Assembly: GCA_031763025.1 (NCBI GenBank)
Contig: JASSKH010000003.1
Coordinates: 4,578,718 to 4,642,717 of the forward strand
Direction: 5' to 3'
Origin: Macrocystis pyrifera
Taxonomy: Eukaryota > Sar > Phaeophyceae > Laminariales > Laminariaceae
DNA: 64,000 nucleotides
Shown here in pieces: positions 17,322 through 48,911 of this stretch; within the stretch, counting starts at the first letter, position 1, and the number at the start of each line of letters is the position of its first letter. The position numbers and the translations under genes were made by a program. The notes beneath the pieces are model-generated. The model saw only the letters and a program-made list of their open reading frames with translations, ran no database searches and was not told the origin of the DNA.

Positions 17322-18365
17322 GTGCTTGTTGCCGTTCACTTGTCCAAGGAGGAAAAGATCGCGAAGTACCAGGTTATAAACAAGCGGGCCAAGAATGGTC
17401 TCTCATCAATGCATCCGAACCTTTGTGTTGGCTCCCGCGAGGAACGTAGCTGTATGGCAGCGGATGTCACCCGTTGCTCGTTGTTGAAGAAGCAAACCAG
17501 TGTTGGGTGGTTTGATACAAGTCCCACCACACAGGCTAGATTGGCTTGCACTCGCCGCCTCTTGTCTCGCCGCCTTTTTGACCCCATTACCACAACCCCG
17601 CCGCGAAACATGCTGGTACCTTTCATGCTACTGATTGTTCGCGCTCAATGCAAATCGCAAGAGCTACGTACGTACAAGGTAAAACCCGGGTACAGCCCCT
17701 CTGTTTTCGCCCCCAAAGCGGTTTGCCACCTAGGGGGTTTGTCGCCCCCGAAGACAAAACAGCACAAACGTACACTAATACCGGCCCTCTATTTTGAAAC
17801 CGGGATACGGACACAGGCTAGATTTGATTTGCTTATCAGAGAAAGGCCGTGTTACGCACCTCCGGATTTCTTGCTTCTCTGTAACTTCAGTGTTTTCACC
17901 GCCCCCGGATTTCTTTTGTTTCCCGGAGATGTAGGGCGGAAACGTGGGCCTCTTTCCCATGGGAGGGCGGGTACTATAAATAGCTGCGAGACAGAACAGT
18001 ACGCTCATAGCAGTGGCGGGGTTTCAGTAACCCTTCTAGGACTGAGGTCCTGTTTGGAGGACAAACGACGGAAGACTCGAGTGCTTCGTCCCCCAAACGG
18101 TACTGCAGTTCTAAAAGGGCTAACTGCCCTCGGATTTCTTGTTTCCCGGAAAGCTAAGGCTGATCGCGGGGCTTTTTTGTATGAGAGGGCTGGTAATGTT
18201 CGTAGAACTGGCGGGGATACTGTCCTGCCGTTACCCAATCAAAAAACAGTACGCACACAACCTTTGTCAGCAACAGGGTTCTTTTTTTGCTGGTCTGAAC
18301 CAACGCATCGCATTATACAGCATGGGTTCCGCATGCAACAACACCTACCTGGTACTGTAATGTGA
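17322..18365 (+). repeat. Repetitive long open stretch, no recognised protein
   Basis: The sequence is open for 347 codons but starts from GTG just after an AG, shows no family motif and carries internal duplication: CCGGATTTCTT recurs near 17860, 17902 and 18130, the last two followed by GTTTCCCGGA. A block near 18090-18125 (CCCCAAACGGTACTGCAG) resembles the reverse complement of a block near 5025-5060 in eIF2D intron 1, so part of this is a dispersed repeat. The segment 17322-17370, between a CGAG and a CAG|GT, could be an exon, but eIF2D already ends at 17097. I do not call a gene. Confidence 0.35.
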
Positions 18366-19332: not shown

Positions 19333-19485
19333 CCTTCAGGGCGACAGAGCAGGAACGAGCATAGATAACTGCTGTACCAACTCTAATTACCCCGCTGTTG
19401 AAAATACTTCAAGTACACAAGAATATACCTGGTATATATTATGCCTTCAGGGCGACAGAGCAGGAACGAGTACAGATGCCATACT
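19333..19485. repeat. Direct repeat of ~40 bp
   Basis: GCCTTCAGGGCGACAGAGCA followed by GGAACGAG occurs at 19333 and again at 19442. A TACCTGGTA site (19426-19434) lies just before the second copy. Confidence 0.75.
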
Positions 19486-27051: not shown

Positions 27052-27486
27052 TATTATGGATACTGTGATATACCCGGGCACAGTGGCTGAGAGGCTGTGT
27101 CGTCGACGTTAGTCGAGGTGATGACACGTCTCAGAGTGTAGCCTGGAAGAAGAGAGTCCTTCCACAGTGTGAAGAAGATGTAGAGATATTGTAACACTGG
27201 CGCTTAGATGGCCAACACACACAGATATAAACCACAGAGTATGCAGGAGCCGAGACGATGGCTGCTTCCTAGAGATGACCAGGACAGCTACGATCCACAC
27301 GAGAGAGATACGAGAGAGTGATCTACTCGGCTAGCAAGCAGAATATTCTACGGAAGTAATTCCTCCGCATGCACATACATACGTTACATTCGAACAGACA
27401 CATATGAGATCTACGATATACAAGAGCAGTGCTACTGATCATTGGCTCATACTGGCTACCTGGTATGTGCTAACATTTCCATAACA
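27052..27486 (-). repeat. 3' LTR of the Copia element (435 bp)
   Basis: Direct repeat of 32682-33160. In element orientation it starts TGTTATGGAA and ends ATCCATAATA. It contains the TACCTGGTA micro-insertion at 27457-27465 that the sister LTR lacks. Confidence 0.95.
27457..27465. repeat. TACCTGGTA micro-insertion, filled site (LTR pair)
   Basis: This LTR reads GGCTACCTGGTATGTGC where the sister LTR (33136-33145) reads GGCTATGTGC. The difference is exactly the 7 bases CCTGGTA, so TA has become TA-CCTGG-TA. Because the LTRs of one insertion start out identical, the change happened after the element inserted, or in the parent RNA or cDNA. Confidence 0.9.
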
Positions 27487-27497
27487 CCCCCCGTCAA
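27487..27497 (-). promoter_or_regulatory. Polypurine-tract-like sequence of the Copia element
   Basis: On the minus strand a run of six G (TTGACGGGGGG) ends directly at the start of the 3' LTR, the position where plus-strand cDNA synthesis is primed. Confidence 0.6.
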
Positions 27498-30400
27498 TGA
27501 AAGCTGCTCTGAATTGTACCAAATTAATGACGATTAAATCAAGCAAGTATTCGTTACATGTGTAAGTTAAATCGTTTCATGTTTTATACGTGCTACAATA
27601 CATTCATGCGCTTGTAAAAGAAGTACCTGCTATTGTTTCTGGCACAAATCAAATTACCATAACTTTCAATCCTGCATGGCTCGTTTAACCAGTGATGGTG
27701 TGAGACCGAACGCCGACTACTAAAAAAGTAAGCTGATTCACACAAACAGAACAGAAAAAAAACAAACACACAAACATATAACACAATTACTTGAACTTTT
27801 TGTTAATGAAGTCGTTCACTTGGAAGTTGTCGATGATGCCTAGTAGATGTTTGAAGCGGTGTTTGTTGAGGTGCTTTGTACCGATGTCAGCAGGGTTGCT
27901 CTCGGTCGGGATGTAATGGATGGAGATCCTTCCTTCCGACACCAGTTCTCGGATATAGAAGAAGCGTAGGGCGATGTGCTTCGTCCTTGAACTGAAGGAG
28001 CGATTTCCCAGCGCGTGTAGCGTTGCCGTGTTGTCGCAGTAGAGCGGCACTTGCGCAAACTCCTTTCCGAACCCAAGCTCAGTCAGCATATTCGAACAAA
28101 ATACTGCTTCCTTCATATCTAGCGCCGACGCAACCAGCTCCGCCTCCATGGTCGACATTGCAGTCAGGCCTTGTAGTCCCGACTTGAAGCTCATCGGTGC
28201 GTTTCCTAGCATCATCAGGTAACAAGAGGTGGACTTTCCGTTGTCAGGGTTGTTGGCCCAGTTGGAGTCCGAAAAGGCTGTAAGCTTGAAGCCTCTCTTT
28301 TTGTACGTGATGTTGAAGTCGGTGGTGCCGGCCAGATAACGAAGAGTATGTTTTGCTGCCACCAAGTGCGTCTTGCTGGGTTTCGCCATTGGGCGAGCCA
28401 GCTGGCCCGTAGCATATATTTTGTCGCAACGGAGCCTTTGAGCAATGCACACCAGGCACCCCACGATGCCCTGATAACGTGTCGTTTCTTCTTCGTTCAG
28501 TAGTGTATCCTCCGGCTGGTTGTTGGAAATCTCCGGACCATAACCAGGCGTGCTGGTTGGTTTACCGTCCGACATCCCGAGCCTTTCGAGGATAGGCTTA
28601 CTGTAGGCTTCTTGGGAAATGGTCAATGTCCTTTTCTCACGGCTCCTTTTCATATTCATTCCCAACACAAGCGATACCCCCCCCATGTCAACCATCTTGA
28701 AACGTTGTTTCAACGTCCTCTTAACCATCGAGATGACGTTCGAGGCTTTGCCGGCTACCAGAAGGTCATCAACATTGGGCGTCAAGATGATCTGGATACC
28801 GTCGTGGTTGTACAGGTAGACGCAAGCGTCAGACTTGAGCGGAACGAAACCGATTTCAACAAGGACGGGGTCAATGGTGTGGAACGAATTCCTGGGGCTT
28901 TGGGCCAGCCCGTAGAGGCTCTTCTCTAGCTGCATTACTAGATCACCTCCATCCTTGTTCTTGACCTCGAAGCCAGGTGCCTGTTCGACGAACACTTTCT
29001 CCTGAATGTCGGCGTATAGAAAGGCAGTGGGCACGTCCATGTGGTCCAAATCCAGGTTGATTTCCACGGCTACGGACGCTACCAGCCGAACGCTCTGTAG
29101 TCTGCACACCGGAGCGAAGGTACTGCCACAGTCAAGTCCAGGTACTTGGTTCCAACCTTGAGCCACTAGGCGTCCCTTGTATGATCCGTCTGCCTTACGC
29201 TTGAATACCCACTTGGACTTAATCCGCTTCCTCCCAGGGGGAACTGCCGTACGCGGGACGAACTTGTAGACTTTTCGTTCGTTAAGACTCGTTATCTCGC
29301 GTTCAGCAGCTGCATTCCATTGCGCACCATCCGGCATGGCCCGTGCTTCTTGGATTGTCCGTGGAACACCCGGTTGAGATGTCCCCACAGCATACGCATA
29401 TTCCGTGAAACCGAAGGGGCCGTCCCTATGGGCGACATCAGGAAACTCCCTTTTCGCGGTGAATGCGTATGAGATACGGCGGGGCTCGCGGATGGTCTTG
29501 GCATTAGGTAGAGCCGAGTCAGCGAGCAGGCAGCGTAAGATGTTCACGATCGTTGGGCCCGCACGCTCGTTTGCACCGATCTGCTGAGGGGTGTTCCGAG
29601 AGGCGAACTCCAGCTTGATGCCGACGTCTTGACAGTACTGACGGAATTCCGCACTCGTTAGTTCCGTACCTTGATCCCCGCGGAGGCAGTGGATGCGCTT
29701 GCCAGTAGGAATCACAGTCCCTTTGTTGAACACCGCAAGTGAGTCCACGGAACAGGTCTTGTCCTTCATGAGAACGATCTCCTTCCACTTGGTCTGCTGG
29801 TCAACGAACTTGGTGGCGTACTTGAAACCTTCCAACGCTGAAGGCGTAAAGGGGCCAAGGGTGTCTACTGAAACTGCTGGAAAGGGCGTAAAACGCCATA
29901 TGAAGCTTGCTTAGGATGAGGTTGTTGTGTGCTCTTACCGAGTGGGCAGGCACCACAATCCTTAACGCCACCGGTGTAGTCGACGCCGATGTCGGGCGCC
30001 TTCTTCAGGACGTCCAAGCTCTCGCTGTTAATATGCCCCATGCGCCGGTGCCAGAGATCAGCGGACTCCACTTTTAAGGCAAGCCCGTCAGGGTTGTCCC
30101 CGAGGACCATCTGCCCCCCAGCGCCACCCCCAAGCTTCACCTCGACGGAGCACATGGTCTTTCCTGTCGTGTCGTCCACTCCGAGGGTCTGCATCGGGAT
30201 AACCACGCCCCCCCCGACTCCAACCTGGGGTTGGTCGGATGAAACAACGTTGCCACCCCCTTCAACATCTCTGCGGTCACGGAAAAAAGGTTGGTGCCCA
30301 GCCCCGGTACCATAACGACGCGAAAGGAGACTTGCCGGTCATTCCCATTGTCGTCTGTGACGGCGCCGACGATCGTCCCCGTAGTAACGCCTTTCAGGAG

Positions 30401-32666
30401 ATGCTGGCCGGCGGCGACTATCGTGAGTGGGACCCGAAGGTCTTCGATATCGCGCATGTGGGCCCGCACTCCTGGTGTAAGCGCAGGGTCTAGGTAATTG
30501 TCGGTCGCTCCACTGTCCACCACCATACGGAGGAATGTTCCGTCGGAGCGGAAAGGAGCTGACGGCAACCCTGCAGGAGTCGCCATGAACGCACCAAAGA
30601 ACCCTGAAGGTATGTGATGGTTCTGCGTAGGTGACTCCCGTTTGGCAGCAGCCGCCGCCGGGAGTTGCTGGGGAACGGCAGGTGACGAGGTGGCCTCTGC
30701 CAAGGAAACACCGAGGGCGCTAAAGGAGAATCCAAACGTAGTCGGCTCGGACTGGGCCGGTTGTGCCACAGTTGGAGACGAGTTCGTCATGTGCGCGCCC
30801 CCGATGTTGGCGAAGTTGCCTGCTGGCTGCAGCAGTGCCAGGTTCGTAGTCAAACCTTGGAGCTCCTTCTGTTTATTCTCGCGCAGCTCCTGTTGTTTAT
30901 GACACTCAGCATCGCTGTGCGTCTTGGTTTTGTGGTAGGAGCACCACTTCGGTTGGTTACTCCCCCCACCACCACTGCTTCGCTTGGGCTTCCTCCTCTT
31001 TGGCTTCCCTTGCTTTGATGGTGACTTCTTGGCTGGTTGGGAGCAGTCGCGCTGGTAGTGCCCGTATGCCTTACACCGGTGGCACTGATCGGTGTGGGAC
31101 GCAACCGCCATCGTGGCCCCCCGGCCGGAGACCACCGTCCCCGACGCGCTGCGTGACTGCTGGTCTACATAAAAGCGGTTCGCCGTCTCCTGGAGGCGGT
31201 CCACAGAAGTAAACTCATCCCGGTAGTGCATCTCCTGGATGCATTTGAACTCTGGGGCCTTGGTCAGGCCCGACAGCATTATGTCTAGGCATACCGCGTC
31301 AGAAACTTCCTCCCACAGCACCTTGAGGCGAAGTTTGAGATCCCAACCCTTCGTGAAGCAGTCTATGGGATCACCGCCAGCAAGATGTCTCAAGTTGAAA
31401 AGCTCGGTGTGACACGCACGCCGAGCTTCCTGAGTTGGAGCGTCGAAACGCTCGTTTAGGGCTTTCCAAGCCGCTGCCCCATCCCCCATAGCACAGGCCT
31501 CCGTCCCTTCGTGAGTACGAACGGTTAGCTGTGCTGACCCGGAGGTCACGAAGAAGAGGAGGGAGTTTAGGCGACCGTTAGCCTTGTCCCACGCGGCCAC
31601 AGTGCCCTCATTCGGTGCGGTTGCCAATGGGCGCTCCTTCCCGTCGAGGACGGGAAGAAGCTCTGGCGCGTGGAGAATGATTGCTTGTCGAAGCTTGGTC
31701 TTCCATTCGCGAAAACCCGAGTGTCCCGAGCATTTCCCAATGGAGTCCAGCATGCGGTGGAGCCCGGAGCCCGATTGTTCCGCCATTGCTGAAGCCAAGG
31801 TAACACGAAGCTCCGTAGCTTACAACCCACGTCCGGTGGAAGCAATCCTGCGTCCATCCGGAATACTGCGCTCCTCCCAAGCACAGTTATAACCTACCGC
31901 AGATGGCTAGACTACGGTGTTGCGGCGACGGAGGTGCCACCTCCGGCCTCGTCCTGCAGGCACACGGGTCAGATGTGCTGCTCAGACTTGCTACGCGTCT
32001 TTCAGCGTAGACTTGTGGCTGCTGCACGGATGCAAACAGGCCTGGTCAGATCCTCAGCCTACACACGTACCGATCAAAATAACCGGCACGCGGAAGATTT
32101 CTTGGACAGACCTACCTCGCGTATACTACGCGCAGGTAAATTCACGTGAGTCGATCACGTGTGCGTAGCTGTAGCAGCCGAACGGCTACCAGCTGTCAGT
32201 CGTATCCTCAAACCACACACGTTACCAAACCGGCAACTCGGCACGTGGAAGATGTCTTGGACAGACTACGCCCGGCGAAAATACCACGCGCAGGCGATTT
32301 CGGTAGTCAGTTAAAGACACACAGGGCACCGAGGAGGCACTCAGCGCGTACAGAACCAACAACCCACACAACCCTATTCGCCAACCAAAGTCAACGCCTA
32401 GAAATTATGCTCCCGAATGCTTTACACAAACAGTTGCGTACCGAAAGTGCAGCCGAGAGCCCAGGTGATCAGTCCGGGCCCAATACGCAAGCGGGTTGAC
32501 TCAGTGTGGCCTCCAGCGGGTTGACTCAGTGTGGCCTCCAGCAGAAAGCTGGCTCTTGCAGCAGCAGCTCCCCGCGGAAAACATCCTCTGGAAGACGTGT
32601 GTGCTCCACAGCACTCGACGACAGCAGAAGTCGCAGTCGCCGCACGCCTTCACTCAGACAGACTAT

Positions 32667-32681
32667 CGGGGCTCATAAACC
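32667..32681 (-). promoter_or_regulatory. Primer-binding site, half-tRNA-iMet type
   Basis: Immediately inside the 5' LTR the minus strand reads GGTTTATGAGCCCCG. It resembles the Drosophila copia PBS, GGTTATGGGCCC, which pairs with the anticodon-arm region of a cleaved initiator tRNA-Met rather than with the tRNA 3' end. The complement CGGGGCTCATAAACC contains the CTCATAA anticodon-loop sequence. Confidence 0.7.
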
Positions 32682-33160
32682 TATTATGGATACTGTGATA
32701 TACCCGGGCACAGTGGCTCAGAGGCTGTGTCGTCGACGTTAGTCGAGGTAATGACACGTCTGAGAGTGTAGCCTGGAAGAAGAGAGTCCTTCCACAGTGT
32801 GAAGAAGATGTAGATATATTATATAAATTTTGAAATACGCCAGCTGTGAGTTATTGTAACACTGGCGCTTAGGTGGCCAACATACACAGATATAAACCAC
32901 ATAGTATGCAGGAGCCGAGACGATGGCTGCTTCCTAGAGATGACCGGGACAGCTACGATCCACACGAGAGAGACACGAGAGAGACACGAGAGAGTGATCT
33001 ATTCGGCTAGCAAGCAGAGTATTCTACGGAAGTAATTAGTCCGCATGCACATACGTACGTTACATTCGAACAGACACATATGAGATGTACGATATACAAG
33101 AGCAGTGCTACTGAACATTGAATTGGTTCATACTGGCTATGTGCTAACATTTCCATAACA
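32682..33160 (-). repeat. 5' LTR of the Copia element (479 bp)
   Basis: Direct repeat of 27052-27486. It lacks the TACCTGGTA insertion but has an extra ~35 bp near 32815-32855 (TATAAATTTTGAAATACG, then CAGCTGTGAGTT) that matches one end of dispersed repeat R2 (38730-39060, 43518-43740, 56985-57310). A short ACACGAGAG unit is also duplicated here. Confidence 0.95.
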
Positions 33161-33165
33161 CGGTC
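33161..33165. repeat. Target-site duplication CGGTC, right
   Basis: Second copy of the 5-bp duplication flanking the Copia element. Confidence 0.95.
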
Positions 33166-34800
33166 ATCATCTTCGCAAGGCCTTCCTCCGACTTAGACAC
33201 AATGCCTGCATCGTCCGCGTACAGCATAACCCTTACTGCCCTCCGTACGCAAGTTAGTGGGTCAACCTTCACCCCGCCCTCGCCGAGGTCCTCCTCGAGA
33301 TGAACTTGGAGTCCCTCAAAATATCTGGGTCTTCACTGAAGCGTATATCAGCACGGCGTGTATCACAGCAGCGAAGAAGACATTGAACAGAAGTGGTGAC
33401 AAGACACATCCTTGCCGCAGCCCCTGAGTGACGTCGAACCATTCCGAGTGCTCGCCGTCATCCGTACGCACGCGGGCTCGCATGCCTTCGTGAAACTGGC
33501 GGATGACGGTTATAGTATCTTCTCTGGTACGCCGAAGCGTGCGAGCACCACCCACAGCAGCTCACGGTCGACGGAGTTATATGCTTTCTGCAGGTCGATG
33601 AAGCACATGTACAGGGGGATTTTTCTAGCTCGTCCGAGTTCTTGCAATCGGCGCACGACGAACAGCATGTCGACCGTTGATCGTGCTGGGCGAAAGCCGC
33701 ACTGTTCCTCGGGGAGTGTCCCCTAGGCCTCGCAGTAGTTACTGAGGCGAGACGCGACCATTTTCAGCTAAACCTTGCCTGAATGGGCAACAAGCGAAAT
33801 CCCCCGGTACTTGTTGCAATCAGAGCGATCCTGCTCTTTATGAAGGACCTTAATGGTCGCATCTTTCCGTTGCTGGGCGTTCTCCACACACACGTTGACA
33901 AGAAAGTAGTGAAAGTACCGGATGAATTCGGGATGGTCGATTTTCAGTATCTCGGCCGGAAGGGAGTCTGGTCCCACCGCTTTCCAGTTTGGCATACCCC
34001 TAATTATCGCCGTCGTATCATCCATGGTCGGTTCGTCTCCAAGCGATGGTGCCAACGGCCGTTGTGGAAATAGGGCGCTGATGGTTGGGTCAAGCTTAGA
34101 AGATTTCGTGGTCAGGAGGGTGCTGAAAAACCTCGCCAACCGTTCAAGAATGTGCCCATTGTCCCTTAGTAGCGTGCCATCCTCGTCCCGGATGAACTGC
34201 TCGCTACTCGCCTTTCGACCGCCCAATCCCACCGTGCCCTTCAAGTGTTTGTAGAAACCCCGCTGGTCGTTGTCGGAGCAGTCTCTTCATTTCAGCAAGG
34301 TACTCTTCGAAGTAGGCGTGCAACGCTGTATCTATCGCCCTTCGCAGATTCGCGCACGCCGTCCTCAGCGTCTTCCACGCGGTTTTGTCCTTCTTGATGC
34401 GCATGACTCGTCGGGCATCCTCCCGCGCATCCCATGTGAGTTGTATGGCGGCTGAGGTTTCCGCGGTCTCGCACCACCCGGGTTTGTGTGGGTGCCGTGG
34501 TGGGGGGGGTACGTCTTTCGCTACTGCATGCATCAAGAACAACATCCGCAAAGGATTCAGCCATCTCAGAGATACTGTTCGGTTGCGAGAAAAGGAAGGG
34601 AAGCTTTGAAAGGATCCGCGCCACGACTCGCTGCCTGCAAGCTCCGTCGGATCGAGCCTTCTGCCGGTCGAAAGGCCGAATTTTGTTTTTTCGTTCGTAC
34701 GTGTCTGTTGGGTGCGAAACGACCGCTGAGGCGGACCATCGCATATACGATATTATGGTCTGAATCCGCCTTGGCTGGGGGCGGAGGCTGGGGGTGGACC
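33166..34800 (-). mobile_element. LINE, 5'-truncated APE-type, endonuclease tail and RT
   Basis: Read on the minus strand from 34800: the end of an apurinic-type endonuclease with the signature SDHNIV (~34755), a linker, then reverse transcriptase blocks [15 protein letters not shown] (~34030), [15 protein letters not shown] (~33790), [18 protein letters not shown] (~33410) and the catalytic MLYADDAGIVSKSEE just before 33166, where the Copia element interrupts it. The first half of the endonuclease is missing, as expected for 5' truncation during target-primed reverse transcription. Frames shift several times and stops are present, so the copy is inactive. The clade (RTE-, L1- or CR1-like) cannot be fixed by eye. 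Confidence 0.88.
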
Positions 34801-34947
34801 TAGTGGGAGATGATAAAAGAAATCTCGAGGGTTCGTGAAGACAACGTACCCTCGGCCGGGGATACGCATATACACTGCTGTTTATCGTACACATCAGGTA
34901 CGTATTTGCACCAGCCCCAGTACCAATACACTGCTGCTGTAATACTG

Positions 34948-34956
34948 TACCAGGTA
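34948..34956. repeat. TACCAGGTA site
   Basis: One of 14 exact TACCWGGTA 9-mers in the window; here no empty counterpart is available. Confidence 0.8.
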
Positions 34957-35333
34957 TTAAATAGTGGGTTTCCTAGGTATCGCTGCTTCCCCCAACCGCT
35001 TACACCAGCCAGCGTCGCAGGGCAAGCGAGACACTCAAACAACAGCAGGTACTACTCTAATTCCGCACACGTCGCCGGCGTCAGCTCTTTATCATTAGCT
35101 CTCTATCATCAAAGCTAGCAATACAGGCGGCCCCAAATATAGATATAGGCAGACTTTCATAAGCGCCCAGCAAGCCTTCCGCGACGCCTACGTGGACGCC
35201 CCTCAACAGGTGATTGTCCGCCATCAGCAGTAGCAGGCTGGCAGTACCCGTCGATGGAAGTACTACGGTAGCACGTGCCGTTTCCACTCACGACGGTCTG
35301 TCTCCCTCCTTCCTCGTCGTCGAATCCAACCTC

Positions 35334-38107
35334 CTACCGGCGAGCGGCGGTTGCTTGAGCCACACTGAGCTGGTGCTGCTCAAGTGTGTCCGCCCATGTG
35401 CCCTTCTCAACAAGCTCCGCCAGGTTCTGGTGCGTTGCTGCCAGCAGGTTTTCCTCGGGCATTGCCTCAGGAAGGAGTCCCGGTCCGATGACGACAGGTA
35501 GGTCTTGTCGAAGAACCCCCCAGCGGACGCCTTGTCAAACCCGACACGAACACGCCCGTTGACGCTACCAACGTTGGCTTCATCCGCGACAAACGCCGCG
35601 TACATCCGCCCACTGCCCAGCACTACTGAAGCAAGGTCATCTCGAAAACCGGCAGTGGAGAGTACTGCATCGTTGATGTCGGTGTATCAGGAGACGGGAT
35701 GAATGGTATTCAGCAGGCACCGGGATTGCATCAATCCTGGCGCAATTAACAGCTAACCTAGCGGTTTAAACTACAAAATTTAATGCCCGAACATGACGAA
35801 CGGTAATGGCGAAGCTGAGCACAGACTATATACATGGTAAGTATCAAAATATGCAAGATGACAACCTTGTCCGTCGTACAATCCTACATTTCCCAAACGC
35901 ACGTGCCAAGCTGACCTTGTTACGCAGTATTCTGCGACTGCAGGGGCCAAGTACGTAGACTTTGGAGGGTGATTCGCCGATACCACAACGCCTATGGCGT
36001 CCAGCTCGGGCTGCCTGGCGCCAATCTTGGGGGCCAAACTCTGTACTTTCCGGTCCGCTAAACTCGAGTTGCACACGTATTCCGAGCTCTTGTGCGCCAC
36101 AATGTTGACGGAGGCATGCAGACGGTGGTCGTTTCTCGCCTTCTTCGGTGTACGACCCGCCTTCGAGCCCAGATACACAGAAATTATCGGGGCGGTCTCT
36201 ACGGTCATGTCAGCCTTTTCCAGCGCACCTGAGCGCCAAGTGTATCATTATCGGGCCAAAAAGGACTTGGTTGGTATATCTAACACAACGACACCGGCGC
36301 ATGAAGCGACAGAGATAATGGCATGCAGCACTGCAACACCGTTAGATAGTGTCGCGACTCCTTCTACTCCAACTAAAAGCAAGATAACAACCTTTGAGCG
36401 CAAATAAAGAACCCAAGATAACTAACCAACAAGAAGACCCTCATCAGTTTCCGAACGTTGTGTCTAGTCGTGTAGGACTCACGTTTAAGACGATCGACGC
36501 GTGACACACAATCAGGCAGGGCGATGACGAGAGTTCCGGTTTCGGCCAGGAGTGAATAGACGTCTGCTAAAACTCCGAACAAGTCAGTGGCGCTGCCTTC
36601 TTCTTCCGACAAGATGTTTTCATCCGCCGCCAAATTGAGGAAGATGAGACCGTACGCTCGACCGAAGGGGAGGTTGTTCACGTCCGGTGGGGGCGATCTC
36701 ACGAGCAAGGAGACGGCTGACACGGAAGTCACCATTGACCTGTACGTGACGGCAAATGAAGCCAGCGTTAAGAGCATAAAAAACGTAAACAATATGCCGC
36801 GTATCCCTGGTGCACAGCACAGAGAAGCGAGGTACGCGCACTAACGATATACCGTACAAAGCTGTCGTCATCGTCACACCTGATCTCTTCCAAGCTGTCA
36901 TCCTCAGGGGCGGGAAGCACGACCGGAACAGGCGTCTTCCTCTTGCTCTTGCCTTTGTTAGTGGCTGCAAACGAAACATGAACATCACACAACGAAGTAG
37001 AGGAAGGACATAATTAACAAAACAGGGGAAAGTATTCAGCCGCGCAGTTAGATCAAGCGCTTTCGTCTCTGTTTTCAGCAAAATGTAGCAAAGCAACACC
37101 CATCCATCCTCACCCGTTGTTGTCGTCGGCCCCGCGTCACCTCTCCCCACGACTTTGTCGGTGCCCTCGGAGGTCTCAGTCGGTTCGGGACCCGCGCCTT
37201 CGCCGCCGCTGCCCCCTCCTTCCCCATCTCTGTCGTTGCTGTCGCCGCCTCCTTCCGGCGTTTCCCCTGGGGGGTCGGCAACGCCGTCAGTACTCGCCTC
37301 ATCGCCTGCACCACCTGCCGGTGAAGATGACATCTGCCCCTTCGATGGCTTCGCTTTCGCCGGGGCCTTAGGCGCCTTTATCACCGCGACTGCAGTAAAA
37401 AAATTCGTTGCTTTGGTCCTGGAGGCCTCCACCTTCGCCCGGTATTCAGTTGCCAACTGCGACAGCTCGGCAGTTCCCATTATAGCCTGCGCAGAGAGCC
37501 ACCGCGAGATCGAAGAAGTACACGCAAAAAACATCGGGAACAAGAGGTGTGCTAAGGAACACACGCGACATACCGTAGTGTTGTATACTACTGTAGTAGG
37601 GTATGCATCAGCCCACGGTCTAGAAATGACCTGTTGTTGTCATGACCTTAGGCGTATTTGTTTGGTGGAGGCACAGAAAATCGCGGGAAGAAATCGTACC
37701 CAGCATCAAGGTTCATGTCAAAATGAAAATCCAAACCCTCAGATTACGTCTTTTTTTTGGCAGGTCGATACTGCGTTTGTATGATATACCAGGTACATAT
37801 ATTTTAACAACGTTATTGAAATCCTCTCATCGGCACTTGTTTGTCGAGAGACGGATGTTTACACTGCAACCCACACGGCACATAAAAAATGTAAGCCGAT
37901 TGGGTTCGACCGACTTAGCCCGACTGTTCTTACCCCAAGCGCGGTCCTTAGCGGTTGGCCCTGGAGGAGAGTCACATGCGTTTCGTCGACCCTGGCGTTA
38001 GGGTGTTTCTCCGCGAGATTCTTCTTGTACTTCTTGACCTCTAGGTCGATGGCCTGGTAATGCGCTTGGAAAGAACGGATCTTTTCGTAGGCCAATTGAC
38101 CACGCAT
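35334..38107 (-). CDS. Unrecognised multi-exon host gene
   Basis: Six minus-strand exons join with consistent splice sites and phase: 37976-38107 (starts MRGQLAYEKIRSFQ), 37114-37486 (helical start, then an Ala/Pro/Gly/acidic low-complexity stretch), 36880-36964 (basic, NKGKSKRKTPVPVV), 36483-36739 (GRAYGLIFLNLAADE, LLAETGTLVIALPD), 36340-36372 and 35955-36228 or a little further (APIISVYLGSK, HASVNIVAHKSSEY). A last exon, 35334-35664, is likely (GRMYAAFVADEANVG, then AMPEENLLAATHQ and a TAG stop), but its junction is uncertain and it needs a one-base change in a G6 run (35515-35520) to stay in frame. The hydrophobic strand patterns in exon 4 suggest an alpha/beta fold, perhaps a methyltransferase-like one. 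I do not recognise the family, and upstream exons may exist. Confidence 0.5.
37797..37805. repeat. TACCAGGTA site
   Basis: Exact 9-mer within the intron between the first two exons of the unrecognised minus-strand gene. Confidence 0.8.
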
Positions 38108-38729
38108 GTACCTGGCAATAAACGCCCAACAGGCGAGCGATACACACGACTATCAATGACAACGTTATCGCGGTACCCTGGTTAGAAAGAAAGGGGCAGT
38201 ACACAAAAACAGTACTCTTCGTCAAGACCGAGATCACAGGGCTGAAGAGTCGTCGGTACTTGAAAAAATCAAACATAGTTGCGTTCGGATTGCTCATATT
38301 GCACTATTTTTCAGAGAACAACAAAGAGGAAAAAAGAGGAAACATCATGGCGCTAGGCAACACTTGTGTTTGCCCGCCTGCTTGCGTTGTTGCATTCTGC
38401 TGTCTGATCGACACGAACATCCTGCTGTATGTACTTTGCTGCCCTGTGCAGGGCCGATTACCGACTGCATGGTGTTGCGCTGTGCTCGCGGCACGTCGAA
38501 ACTGTGGCTACCGGAGTTTGGCTTGTGCCTTCACGCCGTGGTGTGCGCAGCAGAAGCAGCGTCAGTAACAAGAACAATGAAATGACGACACCGAAACGGT
38601 GGCAATTCACCCCGCAGGCAAAGACACACATCTTATGGTAGGTATTAATTAGGGCTAGTATGATACAAATTGTATGCAGTACAGAAGCAGCAGAGTACTC
38701 CAGTATTAACGAGTATAGAGCGTGCGCAC

Positions 38730-39060
38730 CAGTATTCGGGTTGCAACATCATATCATTATCCCTTATTCGGGTTATATAGTATCAGTGCGCAGAATGATT
38801 ATCTAAAACTGAAAATTGTCCTGTTGACCCGGGCAGCATCCAGGGGAGCCGCTGGCCTATATCTTTGACAAGGAATTACATATAGAGTACTGGTACGCGC
38901 GTTCGGTTTATCACAATACTTACTTGTAAAATTCGGTAAAAATGGAATATAGACGAGACGTATTACGCAGCTTGCAAAGTTGAGTACCAGGTATCAACTA
39001 TTTAATCAGTCGAACTCACAGCTAGCTGACGTATTTCAAAATTTATAAAAACATAATAAA
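38730..39060 (+). repeat. Dispersed repeat R2, copy A
   Basis: Shares long blocks with 43518-43740 (same strand) and 56985-57310 (reverse): GTTGACCCGGGCAGCATCCA, TATATCTTTGACAAGGAATT, AGACGAGACGTATTACGCAG and TTTCAAAATTTATAA. Copy A carries several extra short insertions, most flanked by TA: TACCAGGTA at 38985, a TACTGGTA near 38889 and TACTTACT where the others read TACTTG. No coding capacity and no clear terminal repeats are seen, so its class is unknown. Confidence 0.8.
38985..38993. repeat. TACCAGGTA micro-insertion, filled site (repeat R2)
   Basis: This copy reads GAGTACCAGGTATCAAC. The copies at about 43650 and 57065 (reverse strand) both read GAGTATCAAC. The 7-base difference CCAGGTA is the opposite-strand form of the one seen in the Copia LTR and leaves TA on both sides. 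Confidence 0.9.
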
Positions 39061-39620
39061 TACAAGAGCTTCGCATGGGTGCCTGCCGGCACCCATGCTC
39101 CGGATAGGGAAATATACCTCAGTGCCAATTCGTGATTACTTTTTTTAGCAATTATAAATACGCCATTCGATCTTATAAATAGTACGAACATGATCAGGTC
39201 AATGCCAAAAGTGATGCAGGAAAAAGGCAATGCCGAGTTTTCAGTTCTCAGCTTTGTCTCACTCGCATTACTATTGACCAACTTTTTTGCGACGTTGTTT
39301 CGTTTTTTTTTTTTTTTCAGCGATCTCTGAAGCCGAAAAATCAGAACCGTCTACTATTATGGGGCGGGAAACCATCGATACTATTGATCTTTGTCCTGGA
39401 GGGGGCAGAAGTCAGCTCAGATCTGAGAGGTTTATCACATTTCTCAGAACTGAGATTACTTGCATTTTGTGGACCATAGTACTGCTGCCCTTTATCTGCC
39501 CAGTTGCCAAGTAGTACCCCATACCCACGCCGAAGTATCATGCCAACCTATCTACGACGAGTTGTACCTACTGCCAACGGTGCTTGTGCAGGAGAGATGG
39601 CCTCTCATTTGCACATGAAA

Positions 39621-39625
39621 GCGAT

Positions 39626-39657
<32 letters not shown>

Positions 39658-39745
39658 AACAGCACCATTGCTGCTGCTGTGTGCAGACGCAGCCGCAACA
39701 TCAGCAGCAGCACTACCGAAGCAGCAGCAGCAGCAGACAACATGT
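39621..39745. repeat. CAG/CTG-rich microsatellite cluster
   Basis: Several short CAG/GCA runs within 120 bases, interrupted by CACAACAGCACC and CCGCAACATCAG. The Ala-, Ser- and Gln-rich open frames across it are by-products of the repeat. Confidence 0.8.
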
Positions 39746-40233
39746 CAGCTTGCAGCATCCGCCCAAATTACTGCGAGTACAGGATGCGTTACGCGTATTT
39801 TTACCAACCAGTATACGCGCATTATCTACCCTGACTGGTATGAAATACTCCATCATGACTACAGGCAGTAATCGCAGCATATATTCCGAGATGCTGCTAT
39901 AATAGTAGGAGCAGTATCAAACACCTGATACCTGATACTTGGTACGTGATATCGATCGACAATACAGAACAACCTGACAACCGCAAAGTGCACTGCTAAC
40001 ATGGGCTGAATTCTCAGTGTGAACCCCGAATTATTCAGGTCGGATACACGTGAAGCACACGCAGCACAATATCCACAGCACCACACAACCCCGATACACT
40101 GCGAGTACTCGTAGTGGAAGCAAACAGTCCCGAACCCTCGATTACCTCCAGCAGTAGCGCTCGCCGAAATAACTTGACGTGTTTTCACCAGAAAATGGTA
40201 AGGCGAACATCTTATCTTGCAGTAGTATACCGG

Positions 40234-40242
40234 TACCTGGTA
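40234..40242. repeat. TACCTGGTA site
   Basis: Exact 9-mer in unassigned DNA, close to a near-copy TACCTGGCA at about 40319. Confidence 0.8.
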
Positions 40243-40764
40243 ACGAAGGATCGTATCTTAAAGCGGGACTGTATGAAGTAAGTAGTATCTTAAATTTCTT
40301 TATTAAGTAACAGTAAATACCTGGCAGCTGGATATGATCGAAAAAAGTGAAAACCGTCTGCTGTGAGTACGACCGATTAAGTGGTTGAAACTCAAGTTTG
40401 GAAGCTGCGTTATATTGCGTGATACGTCAGACACGCTCATCGGGAGCGCTTGTTATGGATATTTGGTTTTACTTTGTACATCTTCCAAGTAGAATACCTC
40501 TGAACTACTACTCTACTGCTGTACTGTTGCTGCCGTACGTAGTAGTACTCGTATTTCAATGCGCCTCCAGAGATCAGACCTTGCAGCAGCAGTAGACAGT
40601 CCGGGCATGTACGACCACCTGTATGGTATCCTCCGATATGATTGGTCGGTTTTTCTTATCGACCACACTCGGTCGAATTCATACTCTCCAACAACCTCCA
40701 TCCCATTCCCCCAGCGAAAACAAATGACGTGCCGATTTTTATCCAACGATCTGGTAGCAAGTTG

Positions 40765-41102
40765 CCGGCGTCCCCGGTGGCTTGGTAGGTGGTCCGCGTG
40801 CCTATCAAGATCAATTTCGTGGGTTCAAGCCTCACCGAGTGCATGCTCGTAGGGGCTTTTTCTTGCATAAAAAGAGATTGATTGGCGGAAAGCGCGAGAG
40901 CGTGAGTTAGCTACATTCGATGAAAATCGACGAGCAGTGGGAAGGCTGAACCCTACGCGCGATAAAAATAAAGGGCACGTACCGGGGGGGAGAAGGGAAG
41001 ACACCTGTGACCACGGCTTGTCCAGAAGGTTTTATAAAACCTCTCCTACGAGTGGGCTGGAAAGTGAAAGTGATGATGAAACAAAAAAAAAAAAAAAAAA
41101 AA
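40765..41102 (+). mobile_element. tRNA-derived SINE S1, copy 1 with A tail
   Basis: The 338-bp element starts GGCGTCCCCGGTGGCTTGG. It has a tRNA-like head with an A box (TGGCTTGGTAGGTGG) and a B box (GTGGGTTCAAGCCTC), then a ~260-bp body containing TTTTTCTTGCATAAAA and CTGTGACCACGGCTTGT, and ends in about 20 A. It matches 57455-57787 in reverse. Head, body and A tail are diagnostic of a tRNA-derived SINE mobilised by LINE machinery; the partner LINE is not known. Confidence 0.88.
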
Positions 41103-41139
41103 GAGCGGCGCGATATCCCGGGAAGGCGCGAACCGAGAA

Positions 41140-42060
41140 AAAATCACGATTCGTGATTTTTAGGCATGCCAAAGATCACGATCCGTGACATTTCAGTTCT
41201 AACGAAAAAAGCCGAAAACGTCGCGTTTCGTGATATTTTCAAATAGTTAGAGTTCTGATATTTCGAATCCAACGTTTTTTGGGGGGTGTGGAGCAAACTC
41301 TCGAGAGTGGGGCACGGCCAGGCCGGGCTGGGCCGTCCGCACCTGTCCCAGCCCGTGACATATTCAAATCGCGGGCCGAAGCCTGACCCAGCCTGCGAGA
41401 TTCCAACTTCACCGACCGTCGGCCAAGCTCGTTTCGCTAGATTCCATCTCGCAGGCCGTCTGCCCGGCCTGGCCTGTGACATCCCCAGGTCATTTTCGCG
41501 TTTATCTTCCAGCAGTGGCTCCTCCTCCTGGAAATTTCGAGGCCACAACCTCTTCGTTTGCCCGCGCCCAGCGGTGTCTTTGGGTAGCCGCCCGTTGTCC
41601 ACAAGCGGCGTACGAAGCAGAGTCTGCCATGCTCCTATGCCGACCATCGGACACCGTTGGTGCACGTGGGTTGCGTATTGCCTTGATCAGGCGTATTTTG
41701 AGACACGACAAATGTCACGAATCGTGATTTTGTTTTTTTTTTAGGGAAAAGCTAAAAAAATTGGCGTCATGAATCGTGATTTTTTTTGTCGTGAATTATT
41801 GTAGTTCTTTCCTATCCGAGGTTCGATTCTCGGCCTTGCTGATGCTACCGCTTTATACTGCCGACTCCTTTATTCTCCTGACTCCTTTGGTTTGCGGGCC
41901 GCCATCGGCCTGTTCGACCCCCTCGGTCTTGCCTTACTCGGTGGCTGTCTTCCCTTGCCCCTTTCTCTTCGCGAGTCGACTTAGGGCCACTCCTAACGAA
42001 CAAAAAAAGTCACGATTCGTGAGATTTTTGTCGTGAATCGTGAGATTTTTTGTCGTGATG
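41140..42060. repeat. Cluster of TCACGAWTCGTGA palindromes
   Basis: The 13-mer TCACGATTCGTGA (41144, 42010) or its complement form TCACGAATCGTGA (41715), with near-copies at about 41175, 41767 and 42030, brackets 0.9 kb of GC-rich DNA (GGCCGGGCTGGGCC-type inverted words at 41310-41480) and a B-box-like CCGAGGTTCGATTCTCGG (41816-41833). Each is followed by a T run. No protein is convincing here. The arrangement might mark the ends of a non-autonomous element or binding sites. Confidence 0.55.
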
Positions 42061-42565
42061 TGTTTGCGATTTTTTTTTTTTTTTACTTTTACTTCTCTAA
42101 AAATTCTCCCGAGGTAAATTTTTGAGGTAAATTTCTGAAAAAACGGCCGGAAAAGACTTCAGCGAAGTAAGGATTTCAGCGAAAGTTACGGTAACTTTTG
42201 GCTCTCTGTTTCATTGGCCTACACGCACCGAGCATTATCCCGACGCAGAACGCAACTAAAATCTCGAAGGATCAAAACACCGAGCATCTTCCATGCCACC
42301 ATGCTGCTTGCCGTACGCATCACGACAACCGCTGGGAGCACAGAGGCTCGAGAGGTGTAGCTTGGGTATAGCGCGCACGAGCGGCGTTGGATCGTGCCAG
42401 CGGGTCGCCGCCGCTGCTACGGTACACGCTTTCGCCCGCTTGGTGACGACGTGGAGGATGCGTCGTCCCAAAAAAGGACTCGTATTCACACTCGTACTCG
42501 TACTCGTGCTCGTAGAGAGCGCGACAGCATGACAGCTCGTGTATCATTTCGATTTCACCATACTA

Positions 42566-42664
42566 CGGCTGCAGCAGCAGCAGCAGCAGCGGCAGCAGCG
42601 GCAGCAGCGGCGGCGGCGGCGGAGCGGAGCGCGCCGGCGCTGTGGCGTGCGTAGGCCGAGCGCA

Positions 42665-42707
<43 letters not shown>

Positions 42708-42716
42708 CAATCCAAA
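42566..42716. repeat. CAG/CGG microsatellites
   Basis: CAG units grade into CGG units (42570-42625), followed 45 bases later by a second pure CAG run (42665-42710). A short ACTCGT array precedes them at 42480-42515. Poly-Ala and poly-Gln frames across it are artefacts of the repeat. Confidence 0.85.
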
Positions 42717-43517
42717 AATGGAAGCTGGTTGGTGCTGGTGCTTGCTGGTGCTGGTGCTGGTGCTGACGCTGTTTATTTTTGTTGCTCACGCTGCCCCTAG
42801 CTGCGTCTAGCGCCAGCTAGCTGCTATTGCTGCTTGTAGTCGTGGGATGGCTGTGGTGGCTACGCGGTCAACTGTGCCGCCGAAAACGTTGCTGGGCTGC
42901 CGTCGCTACTCGCACGCTGTTTTTTTTTCCGTTCACAGCATTCGTTCTTTTTTTGTTTGCCGCGTTGCCTCACCTCCCCACTTCCCTTCTTATTTTCGGA
43001 GGCGTCGCCTGCAGGATTTGATTTACCTCACTCGCAAACACACCGAAATCAGGAAGGGAAGGAAATTCACTTTTTTTAGCGGAAGTAAAGTTTTTTTTTT
43101 TTTTTACCTCTATCGCAAACACTCTAATATGCAGTAGAGCCGCTTGGTAGAGCTAGACGTCGCAACCAGGGAAGGGTAGACAAACCACGTAGACAAACGC
43201 AGGGAAGCCAGACGAAGAAACTGAGCTAGGATATCCGACTACGAACTCTGTACTCGTGGATATCCGGTAGGTACGTTACACAAAGAAATGCGGCGCAACC
43301 TGAAATAACGCGGTGGAACCCAAACCAACCAGCTTCAACACATGCAGATAGTCTGTACAAGCGTAACATTCCAACACACCCACCAAGCACACTTGTCGTA
43401 CCGATGAGCAACTCTGTAGGCTACCTGCTACTGCTGTGGCGCTGCAGCAAGTGCTAACATGGAGCTGTACATTCGCTACAGAACATTGATAATGCCAATA
43501 CACTGATTTCGTCAACT

Positions 43518-43740
43518 TCTTAACACGCTGGCCTGTATCTTTGACAAGGAATTACATACGAGTATAGAATACGCGCGTTTGGTTTATTACAATACTTGTA
43601 AAATTCGGTAAAAATGGAATATAAACGAGACGTATTACGCAGCTTGCAAAGTTGAGTATCAACTATTTAATCAGTCGAACTCACATCTGACGTATTTCAA
43701 AATTTATAATAAAATATATAAATATCATATATAAAAAAAT
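43518..43740 (+). repeat. Dispersed repeat R2, copy B
   Basis: Shorter copy of the 38730-39060 family, starting at CTGTATCTTTGACAAGGAAT. It has the empty form (GAGTATCAAC) of the TACCAGGTA site, but its own extra TACGAGTA insertion (near 43552) where copy C reads GTATAG. Confidence 0.8.
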
Positions 43741-43744
43741 TGGG

Positions 43745-43880
43745 TTTTAGCCAAAATCAGGTATGTGTATACCTGGCCACTTTTCGGCCAAAATCAGTTA
43801 CATGCTAAAAACAAGAACAAAACACACCCCTGGAGCCCTGTTATTGGCCAGGCTGACATCGTAACTGATTTTGGCTCGAA
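43745..43880. repeat. TGATTTTGGC inverted-repeat cluster
   Basis: GCCAAAATCAGTTAC (43787-43801) faces its exact complement GTAACTGATTTTGGC (43861-43875) across about 60 bases. A further arm, GCCAAAATCAGGTA, sits at 43750, and a TACCTGG at 43770. Related arms recur at 43920 and at 44567-44614. This looks like debris of a small inverted-repeat element. Confidence 0.6.
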
Positions 43881-44566
43881 AAAGTCAAGGTATCCCTGAT
43901 TTTTCTACTCTGTCTAGCGTTCAACTGATTTTGGCCAACTTTGAACCAATCAGAGAGGCCACATATGTGTTTTCTCTCCGTCTGCGTCTGCCCTCCCTCG
44001 GTTGAAATTCTTCTGTATTGACGTATAAACTCTGTACTCGTACGTCGCACGGAAAAGTACGTATATACGTGCATACATGCGTACGCTGGTTTCACTTTTT
44101 CTCTCCTTTGGGGTGTGCAATGTGTTTCAGTTAGTTGCTGTGTGTACTCTGTTGTTTTCTACCACTATGTTCACAGCAGTCTTTACAGCACCATGGCCAC
44201 ACGGCATTTCGTCTGCACCACCCCGCGTCGAAGTGGTCTCAGGTTTGGTACGGCAAGATAATTTCGTGCCGAGCAGGCGGTTCCGCGAGGACGGTCTAGA
44301 AGCTTTAAAGCTGTCAACGGGGGGGGGGTGCCAGAGTAAATACTCTTGGCGCTCCGGCCGTGGCGAAACAAACGAAGCATGTTAATAGTGACTCTCTGCA
44401 AGTCCAAGTGGAGCCAGTGGTACCTACACCCTGAAGAAAACAAAACGATTCAGATTTTGGAAGCCATGTGGCACGCTTAGTGCTTTTTAGGCGCATTCTT
44501 TTTTTACCGGATTGTCATGGACATCACACCGCTCGTGGCGCGCGTTTTTTACTTGGTTTTAGCATG

Positions 44567-44596
44567 TACCTGATTTTGGCTCAAACGGATCAGGTA
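44567..44596. repeat. 30-bp mini-element with TA-flanked CCTGAT ends
   Basis: Starts TACCTGATTTTGGC and ends GGATCAGGTA, so CCTGAT/ATCAGG inverted ends are flanked by TA. A second TACCTGATTTTGGC follows at 44601. These ends begin with CCTG, like the recurrent TACCTGGTA sites. Confidence 0.5.
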
Positions 44597-44624
44597 TGTA
44601 TACCTGATTTTGGCATTTATTTGC

Positions 44625-44826
44625 CCTAAAAAACTCATGCGGCAAATACTCTTCCATTTGGTGCGTTTCAATGCCCGCCCAGCGGCCGCATGAATTGTGG
44701 TCCTGATTAGTTGTGGGAAACGAATAGATTCAGTGCAGCCCGAGAAAAAGAATATATATATCTAGGAAGAACGTCCGTACTGATTCGGCTGGCGAGGCCC
44801 AGGATGGACCCAAACACGTTTTTTGG
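44625..44826 (+). repeat. Dispersed repeat R3, copy lacking the SINE
   Basis: Matches 57393-57454 plus 57788-57912 (CTCATGCGGCAAATA, CAATGCCCGCCCAGCGGCCG, then ATTGTGGT and CGAATAGATTCAGTGCAGCC). It gives the empty site for SINE copy 2: GCATGA runs straight into ATTGTGGT at 44693/44694. Confidence 0.8.
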
Positions 44827-44834
44827 TTGTCCAC

Positions 44835-45110
44835 TTCCACGAAAAAAATGCTTGATATTAATTGAAGAAGCCGAAATGGTGGGGGGGGGGGGGGGGGCAT
44901 GCCCTGGCCCGTCCTCCCCCTGCATGCGTACGCCTTCCTTACCCCTATATAAAATAGCCGGAGGGAAGAGAGAAAAGGGGGGGGGGGGTCGCCTTGTCCC
45001 TTTTCGCTTGCTTACGCCTCCCCCCTCCTCCACACAAACGAAACGCGGTCGACCTCCTTACCGGTCGCGCTCCGCTAGTGGAACGCCTCCCCAGACGCCT
45101 CCACGCCGGG
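44835..45110 (+). repeat. Repeat shared with the DIRS-like element's left flank
   Basis: About 250 bases, from GTCCACTTCCACGAAAAAAA to GCTCCGCTAGTGGAACGCCT, nearly match 50090-50340, including G runs and a TATATAAAATAG segment. It is probably terminal sequence of another DIRS-like copy truncated here. Confidence 0.7.
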
Positions 45111-45138
45111 GACCCACCTCGACTGCCAATCGATTATG

Positions 45139-45488
45139 AGTGTAGTGATTCCGTTTCAAACGGCCCGTGCGATCGGGATCAAGCCACTACTAATCGACCA
45201 CTATGTGCTTGTGCTTTCGGGTGGTTCCGTTTCTAACGGCCCGTTCGTACCGGGAACCCACCACGATTGCTAAACGAATATGTGATGATTCCGTTTCTAA
45301 CGGCCCGTGCGATCGGGATTATGCCACCACTTAATCGACCACCACTTACGCGTGCTTTCTAGTGGTTCCGTTTCTAACGGCCCGTGCGATCGGGAACCCA
45401 CCACGAAAACTAAACGATTAATATGTAATGATTCCGTTTCAAACGGCCCGTGCGATCGGGATTAAACAACTACTAATCGACCACTATG
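45139..45488. repeat. ~70-bp satellite array, left part (about 5 monomers)
   Basis: Monomers of about 70 bp centre on TCCGTTTCTAACGGCCCGTG and CGATCGGGATTA. The core can fold: CCGTT pairs with AACGG and CCCG with CGGG. Alternate monomers differ (GTGCGATCGGG or TTCGTACCGGG), so the higher-order unit is about 140-210 bp. The array continues at 48917-49693 on the other side of an inserted retroelement. Confidence 0.9.
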
Positions 45489-46100
45489 TATTGATAATTA
45501 TCCTTGCATGTGGCAGAGGCAAGCACTTCAATCGATGTTAACCGACTGGTGAAGCATGAGCTTCGAGCTCGAAAGAGCTGATGATGAAAGAGATGGCACT
45601 CCAAGGCCTTGTCGTTGATTATTGCGGTCTCGCAGAGGAGACAGGTGGGGAGAGAAGGAGAGTGAACAAGTGGGCGTGCAAACGCTCCTCTTGGCTGTTT
45701 CCGATCTTGACGATCTTTAACAGATACATAACAGATACATATACCTCCTACGATGACGTTCGTCAGGTGATGACACACCCGAATCCGATTACGGCCTATG
45801 ACAACGTTCGTCAGGTGATGGCACTCCCGTACCCGATTACGGTCTATGACAACGTTCGTCAGGTGGTGACACACCCAAAATCGATCTATTATGGATCCCT
45901 TGTACCGTATACTACCAGATATTCCGTGGTATCCAGTGACGACAAAATGATAGCTACTGTCAAGTAACATCTCCAATAGACTAGCTATGTCCCGACAGCG
46001 AACCGATAGGCTACTGACTACTGCTATTGTTGTTGTGTAGCAACTGACTACTGCCAACGCTGCTGTTGGGTAACAACGTACCTGGTAGCTATCTTTAATA
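45489..46100 (-). repeat. Left LTR (3' LTR), 612 bp
   Basis: Direct repeat of 48307-48911. It is exactly 7 bp longer because of the CCTGGTA insertion at 46081-46087. It contains four imperfect internal repeats of GACAACGTTCGTCAGGTG-type sequence (45755-45870). Confidence 0.92.
46079..46087. repeat. TACCTGGTA micro-insertion, filled site (LTR pair 2)
   Basis: This LTR reads AACGTACCTGGTAGCTATC; the sister LTR at about 48895 reads AACGTAGCTATC. CCTGGTA is the only length difference between two LTRs of more than 600 bp. Confidence 0.92.
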
Positions 46101-48306: not shown

Positions 48307-48911
48307 TATTGATAATTATCCTTGCATGTGGCAAAGGCAAGCACTTCAATCGATGTTAACCGACTGGTGAAGCATGAGCTTCGAGCTCGAAAGAGCTGAT
48401 GATGAAAGAGATGGCACTCCAAGGCCTTGTCGTTGATTATTGCGGTCTCGCAGAGAAGACAGGTGGGGAGAGAAGGAGAGTGAACAAGTGGGCGTGCAAA
48501 CGCTCCTCTTGGCTGTTTCCGATCTTGACGATCTTTAACAGATACATAACAGATACATATACCTCCTACGATGACGTTCGTCAGGTGATGACACACTCGA
48601 ATCCGATTACGGCCTATGACAACGTTCGTCAGGTGATGACACACCCGTACCCGATTACGGTCTATGACAACGTTCGTTAGGTGGTGACACACCCAAAATC
48701 GATCTATTATGGATCCCTTGTACCGTATACTACCAGATATTCCGTGGTATCCAGTGACGACAAAATGATAGCTACTGTCAAGTAACATCTCCAATAGACT
48801 AGCTATGTCCCGACAGCGAACCGATAGGCTACTGACTACTGTTATTGTTGTTGTGTAGCAACTGACTACTGCCAACGCTGCTGTTGGGTAACAACGTAGC
48901 TATCTTTAATA
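48307..48911 (-). repeat. Right LTR (5' LTR), 605 bp
   Basis: Direct repeat of 45489-46100; it has the empty TA site and only a few base substitutions. Confidence 0.92.

Follow-up and report, generated by a model that had tools for sequence, protein, structure and literature searches.

Transposons such as Sleeping Beauty, ZB, Mos1 and Minos insert at a TA dinucleotide, and the staggered cut that releases them leaves a few of their terminal bases behind. The pogo/Tigger/Tc5-type (DDE_1) transposons target TA as well. For ZB, a preference for a palindromic AT repeat has been reported in the accessible part of one study (PMC7913693), and in the brown alga Ectocarpus a survey, as far as its accessible text goes, describes 17 Mariner-Tc1 families with 11,912 copies, mostly miniature inverted-repeat transposable elements (MITEs; PMC12477816). 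The words 'footprint' and 'excision' each occur 0 times in the main text of that survey. The present analysis concerns a stretch of 64,000 nucleotides of the kelp Macrocystis pyrifera (contig JASSKH010000003.1, positions 4,578,718 to 4,642,717), hereafter the window, in which the motif TACCWGGTA stands in repeat copies where sister copies have plain TA. Like the products of Sleeping Beauty, ZB, Mos1 and Minos, it combines a TA target with a few residual bases, and we regard it as probably the excision footprint of a TA-duplicating cut-and-paste transposon.

The sites that carry the comparison of filled and empty copies lie in Copia long terminal repeats (LTRs), in a repeat called R2 and in further sampled genome loci (L-numbered below) which were compared with the window.

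27457..27465, + strand: TACCTGGTA micro-insertion in a Copia LTR; the partner has plain TA
33132..33144, + strand: empty site for 27457, plain TA at ~33138
38985..38993, + strand: TACCAGGTA micro-insertion, repeat R2; empty copies: two in the window, others in L021, L024 and L019
43649..43663, + strand: empty site for 38985, plain TA at ~43657
57060..57074, - strand: empty site for 38985, plain TA at ~57067
46079..46087, + strand: TACCTGGTA micro-insertion in a gag-only Copia LTR; filled length in none of the other scored copies
48890..48904, + strand: empty site for 46079, plain TA at ~48897
L012:7630: filled; empty in L022 and also in the window at ~6150, where TG replaces TA
L038:2431: filled; empty in L043
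9436..9444, + strand: TACCTGGTA, an older insertion that the decayed copy at 63030 and L015:5869 share by descent
63030..63038, + strand: TACCTGGTT, decayed copy of the older insertion at 9436

The original prediction, made on the window alone, had claimed three filled/empty pairs differing by exactly 7 base pairs (bp) at TA, and self-alignment of the window confirms an exact 7-bp gap at TA for all three (27457, 38985 and 46079). Its statement that the 46079 pair has no other length difference over 600 bp is also borne out, the gap being the only one in a 613-column alignment at 97.7% identity. In 55 non-trivial self-alignments there are 208 gaps, a tally that overlapping repeats enter more than once; 7 of these gaps measure 7 bp, and 4 of the 7 are the TA-CCWGG insertion, at three sites. 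A homologous copy across the site was present for 10 of 91 sites, compared among the sampled loci and the window. The tabulation of filled and empty states which had been proposed gave the exact TA versus TA-CCWGG-TA difference at five of these ten, three in the window and two outside, and in all five the duplicated target is TA alone. Two more (9436 and L015:5869) represent one older insertion in common, one (L021:6827) differs from its copy by substitution, and two (L009:3018 and L016:2516) are not alignable at the site.

Polarity could be read at two sites. For 46079 the query was the filled LTR; of 491 candidates 40 were scored, by length rather than by letters. Besides the query, 38 scored LTRs span the site, one of them the window partner, and 1 ends within it. 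The filled length occurs in 0 of the 38; 18 are shorter by exactly 7 and the rest by 4 to 22, differences from which the state is unreadable. At 38985, five or more other copies are empty, and among the listed R2 matches covering the query from position 1 to at least 311 (40 of 3,221 candidates scored) no other exceeds 305 bases, a length gap to which several insertions in the window copy contribute besides the 7 bp. Given the 0 of 38 spanning LTRs with the filled length and the five or more empty copies of 38985, the 7 bp were gained at both sites, and the gain at 46079 postdates the insertion of its LTR element.

The motif is not restricted to these repeats. The window holds 14 copies of TACCWGGTA, where 100 shuffles average 0.28 (shuffle maximum 2), and TA-CCWGG-TA is its top TA-N5-TA word, with 14 of 210 occurrences and 4 for the runner-up. 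The genome, window included, amounts to 537,376,219 bases in 223 contigs; the published assembly is given, in the accessible part of its description, as 537 Mb in 35 scaffolds and 188 contigs with an N50 of 13,669,674 (PMC10498591). Among three proteins related to one window gene, the single one whose source is named comes from the brown alga Hapterophycus. A genome-wide search, which the original prediction had proposed, returned 121,279 sites for TACCWGGTA and 2,421 for the reversed pattern, an excess far above what had been claimed. The motif is palindromic as a set, so that both strands count the same sites, which lie scattered through the genome, roughly one in every 4.4 kb. A sample of 264 kb picked independently of the motif holds 71 sites (57 fall within the 200 kb made up of 20 spread loci of 10 kb, with 0 to 8 per locus), where an order-4 Markov model expects 3.5; this is the highest over-representation of the 9-mers tested, namely those counted at least 14 times, simple sequence excluded. 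Comparison of the flanks at the 70 sites where these are complete gave 23 matching pairs, one through shared descent and the others as neighbouring sites with overlapping windows or as matches of 21-35 bases. As flanks are mostly unmatched, most of these sampled sites look like separate events. Our literature search, with subscription papers mostly outside it, found no earlier report of a TACCWGGTA scar.

TACCAGGTA is the reverse complement of TACCTGGTA. Judged by the letters, A or T at the motif centre is a matter of orientation, the same double-stranded sequence being read from either side, and the occurrence of 'either base at the mismatched centre', which had been offered as evidence, fails as such for the same reason.

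Flank composition was taken from 93 sites, all oriented to give the T form from left to right. Immediately outside the TA, 83% of the bases are pyrimidines and 4% are A; positions 5-7 are rich in T and A, and composition is near background from position 8 outward. The preference is the mirror image on both sides, palindromic and AT-rich, as would be expected of a dimeric TA-targeting transposase. Sites also cluster, with 8 neighbouring pairs at most 30 bp apart, where 1000 within-locus draws of TA sites average 1.19 and reach 7 at most. One group (L024:662-808) has five TACCTGGTA sites inside 150 bp, all oriented alike, with one TA common to two. At window positions 3237-3266, TACCAGGCACCAGGCACCAGGCACCTGGTA forms a short direct-repeat run with halves of the scar motif at its two edges.

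An excision footprint would arise as follows. An element with termini 5'-CCAGG... or 5'-CCA... would insert at TA, duplicating it, and would later be cut out by staggered breaks; a few terminal bases per side would be left and then end-joined into TA-CCWGG-TA. The junction might consist of two 5-nt CCAGG overhangs paired with each other around an A:A centre, or of 3+2 terminal bases (CCA + GG). Serial hopping by a few elements could leave scars that far outnumber the elements. As to the enzyme, IS630-Tc1-mariner taken broadly, pogo included, is the likeliest class. The footprint of this class requires TA duplicated around the residue, which is what five of the ten comparable sites display, and the palindromic AT-rich preference around TA agrees with it. 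Two other classes were considered and rejected: hAT excision or insertion needs an 8-bp target duplication and PiggyBac a duplicated TTAA, and TA alone is duplicated here. The exact TA-duplicating differences, the gain at two sites, the palindromic target and the scale uphold this part of the Tc1/mariner footprint reading in the original prediction, and from them we infer the presence and departure of an element. As for the resident element of that reading, none with matching ends was established in the 276-336 kb searched out of 537 Mb.

Several points weigh against excision footprints, beginning with this last one. A full element with TACCWGG...CCWGGTA ends, for which a search had been proposed, was not established in 276 kb, where 341 pairs of TACCWGG ends lie at most 8 kb apart and the inner sequence is alike in 2, one clearly and one weakly (L016:670-4563, with 9 bases in agreement out of 13 inner ones). 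Under looser criteria, none of 295 pairs in 336 kb rose above the control maximum. The residue between the TAs is 5 bp, longer than the 2-4 bp published for assayed Tc1/mariner elements (PMC7913693) and than the 0-4 bp left by an assayed pogo-type element (PMC9976928), as far as the accessible parts of both reports go. Excisions of rice DNA transposons, in the portion of the study available, occur mostly with deletions or filler and are clean in 8 of 94 cases (PMC4423477); these products are varied, whereas one product dominates in the kelp. Orientation is identical in 8 of the 8 pairs at most 30 bp apart, 3 of which come from one locus, L024 (at 31-300 bp, 3 pairs are alike and 4 opposite, n=7). 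This goes against the reading because random, independent resolution of a mismatched centre predicts otherwise, and the co-oriented clustering argues for nearby re-insertion in a fixed orientation or for a copying process. The absence of the source from the sample would cap the copy number of an element with such ends at roughly several thousand.

The one good candidate for a source, L009:2261-2732 (472 bp, perfect TACCAGGGATATAATTA ends), was rejected as a member of a hAT-like MITE family (L009:2261-2732, L025-L044; CAGGG...CCCTG ends), which has 380 first-look candidates. At 14 loci with both ends readable, 5 exact 8-bp duplications and 3 with one mismatch were read by eye outside the CAGGG/CCCTG ends, for example GTATGTAC, CTTTCTAC and GTAGGTAT; the L009 copy itself, one of the 14, has no clean 8-bp duplication. 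Its TACC...GGTA look is due to the target preference of the family. Half motifs of the form TACCWGGCA (22 versus 5.9 expected in 264 kb) were also considered as element ends and set aside; the bases past GGCA are not common to them, and decayed sites are likelier. A scan of viral contigs with a Copia protein gave no match.

The transposase searches gave mixed results. DDE_3 (PF13358) is the usual Tc1/IS630 domain, and it has 0 matches in the kelp genome, a point against the footprint, with positives in 3 of 14 control genomes; Transposase_1 has 0 matches in the genome and none in the control genomes either. DDE_1, of the pogo clade, has 39 genome matches over the cut-off, a point in favour, 28 of them stop-free in the matched part, and the control genomes are silent. 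In the 4.5 kb around the best DDE_1 match, CCWGGTA occurs 0 times and TACCWGG once, inside a reading frame.

G000:C202:8066650-8067204: best DDE_1 locus (L045)

The protein of this locus combines the DDE_1 domain with a weak Tc5-type DNA-binding match, below the model cut-off. No terminal repeats or element ends were found in the 4.5 kb, which may not span a whole element. Transposases of the pogo/Tigger/Tc5 type are present in the kelp genome, with no established link of the class to CCWGG, and a resident pogo-type (DDE_1) family is possibly the source of the enzyme. Many of the pogo/Tc5-type matches lie on small unplaced contigs. L045 also contains a MITE of ~756 bp (L045:3256-4013) with TAA/TTAA at its edges, which looks recently active; 39 further near-full copies listed have 97-99% identity, among 1,535 first-look candidates. 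Similar CACGATTCGTGA inverted repeats lie in window positions 41143-42021.

Products of other lengths also face empty copies in the R2 family.

38888..38895, + strand: TACTGGTA, 6-bp variant, TA versus TA-CTGG-TA, in the same R2 copy as 38985
43557..43564, + strand: TACGAGTA, distinct 6-bp insertion, TA versus TA-CGAG-TA, in another R2 copy; two empty copies

In a sample of 330 kb, part of it selected for the hAT-like MITE, TACCGGTA was counted 27 times versus 4.6 expected, and one-base substitutions of TACCWGGTA are also in excess, as expected from the decay of old sites. A 4-nt overhang of a CCAGG end would give TACTGGTA and not TACCTGTA. The same sample has 33 TACTGGTA versus 13.9 expected and 12 TACCTGTA versus 9.9, and the prefixes CCA and CCAG are high, whereas CCT and CCTG are not. 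Raw genome counts, which are blind to varied excision products, as motif counting is, are 42,728 for TACTGGTA and 23,377 for TACCTGTA, with reversed controls of 35,011 and 13,099; relative to these controls the ratios run opposite to the raw counts, at 1.22 for TACTGGTA and 1.78 for TACCTGTA, which leaves the two comparisons at odds. The R2 copy at window positions 38740-39062 has extra small insertions absent from its window sisters: the 6-bp TACTGGTA, 4-bp tandem duplications and an additional 7 bp near 38809. TAGGWCCTA is enriched as well (13 versus 0.8), at several loci including window positions 1948-1980 and 5115-5144, where it seems to belong to a dispersed repeat that also has AATAGGACC.

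Other explanations have to be set beside the footprint. The original prediction itself named deletion as the alternative: an ancestral filled state, with 7 bp lost from the empty copies between the flanking TAs. The geometry of a single pair cannot separate gain from loss, and 27457 and L038:2431 have one partner each for comparison; the LTR family at 46079 and the several empty copies at 38985 answer the objection, and we give deletion next to no credence. A palindromic protein-binding motif that arose through ordinary mutation and was kept or multiplied by selection would suit the W-centred palindrome, the AT-rich flanks and the clustering. Selection of this kind is very unlikely in view of the exact 7-bp TA-duplicating change at five alignable sites, with substitution at one, and of the position of sites inside LTRs and dispersed repeats. 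The variants raise the idea of several extinct or near-extinct TA-transposon families, CCWGG being the commonest scar and CGAG and CAG scars coming from others. In 276 kb, TA-CGAG-TA is found 44 times versus 10.3 and TA-CAG-TA 98 times versus 38.9, and one TACGAGTA faces two empty copies. By a half-word expectation, however, the two excesses are just 3.5 and 2.2 fold on a background in which TA-flanked words are generally 1.2-2 fold high (this expectation is inflated by real scars, CCAGG itself reading just 90 versus 31.2), and the filled/empty support consists of single cases, so that we consider several families improbable.

More room is left for an insertion without any element, in which a transposase-like or repair enzyme writes CCWGG and a TA duplication directly into TA; the equivalent product is a palindrome ACCWGGT placed between T and A. 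A single, near-invariant 7-bp product made 121,279 times would be natural for such an enzyme, as would the lack of an established carrier in the 276 kb and 336 kb searched and the excess of close pairs, all co-oriented. We know of no such micro-insertion process. Moreover, variants that differ in length (TACTGGTA and TACGAGTA, both facing empty copies, and TACCGGTA, known by its enrichment) resemble heterogeneous end-joining, and transposon footprints of a similar general kind have precedent in the accessible part of the literature (PMC1925063). Writing without an element is possible and, in our judgement, not the probable course. Its strictest form, a fixed 7-bp sequence written genome-wide into TA with no carrier ever inserted, minimal and non-replicating, with re-insertion in the same orientation a few bases away, we hold to be rather unlikely.

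The remaining window sites have no sister copy among the sequences compared.

5235..5243, + strand: TACCAGGTA, no sister copy
5365..5373, + strand: TACCTGGTA, no sister copy
5439..5447, + strand: TACCAGGTA, no sister copy
6712..6720, + strand: TACCTGGTA, no sister copy
18346..18354, + strand: TACCTGGTA, no sister copy
19426..19434, + strand: TACCTGGTA, no sister copy
34948..34956, + strand: TACCAGGTA, no sister copy
37787..37795, + strand: TACCAGGTA, no sister copy
40234..40242, + strand: TACCTGGTA, no sister copy
62947..62955, + strand: TACCTGGTA, no sister copy

If these sites are scars, a single genome would provide a readable ledger of more than 100,000 past jumps, far above the number of elements in the sequence examined. 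Transposition rate, target choice and end-joining would become directly measurable in a brown alga, and the scars would be the mark of a transposon family with high activity and possible use as a tool. If they are not scars, they would reveal an undescribed route for inserting a fixed short sequence into TA.

The excision footprint has its nearest likeness in the Stowaway MITEs and Osmar5, Tc1/mariner elements of grasses, for which the accessible part of the report (PMC1925063) describes short terminal fragments inside a duplicated TA, as here, together with repeated insertion beside an old footprint at one site, a likeness to the clustered kelp sites. The grass scars differ in number and kind: they are varied and come from a handful of sites, whereas in the kelp a single 5-bp scar dominates, at 121,279 sites, with its element not found.

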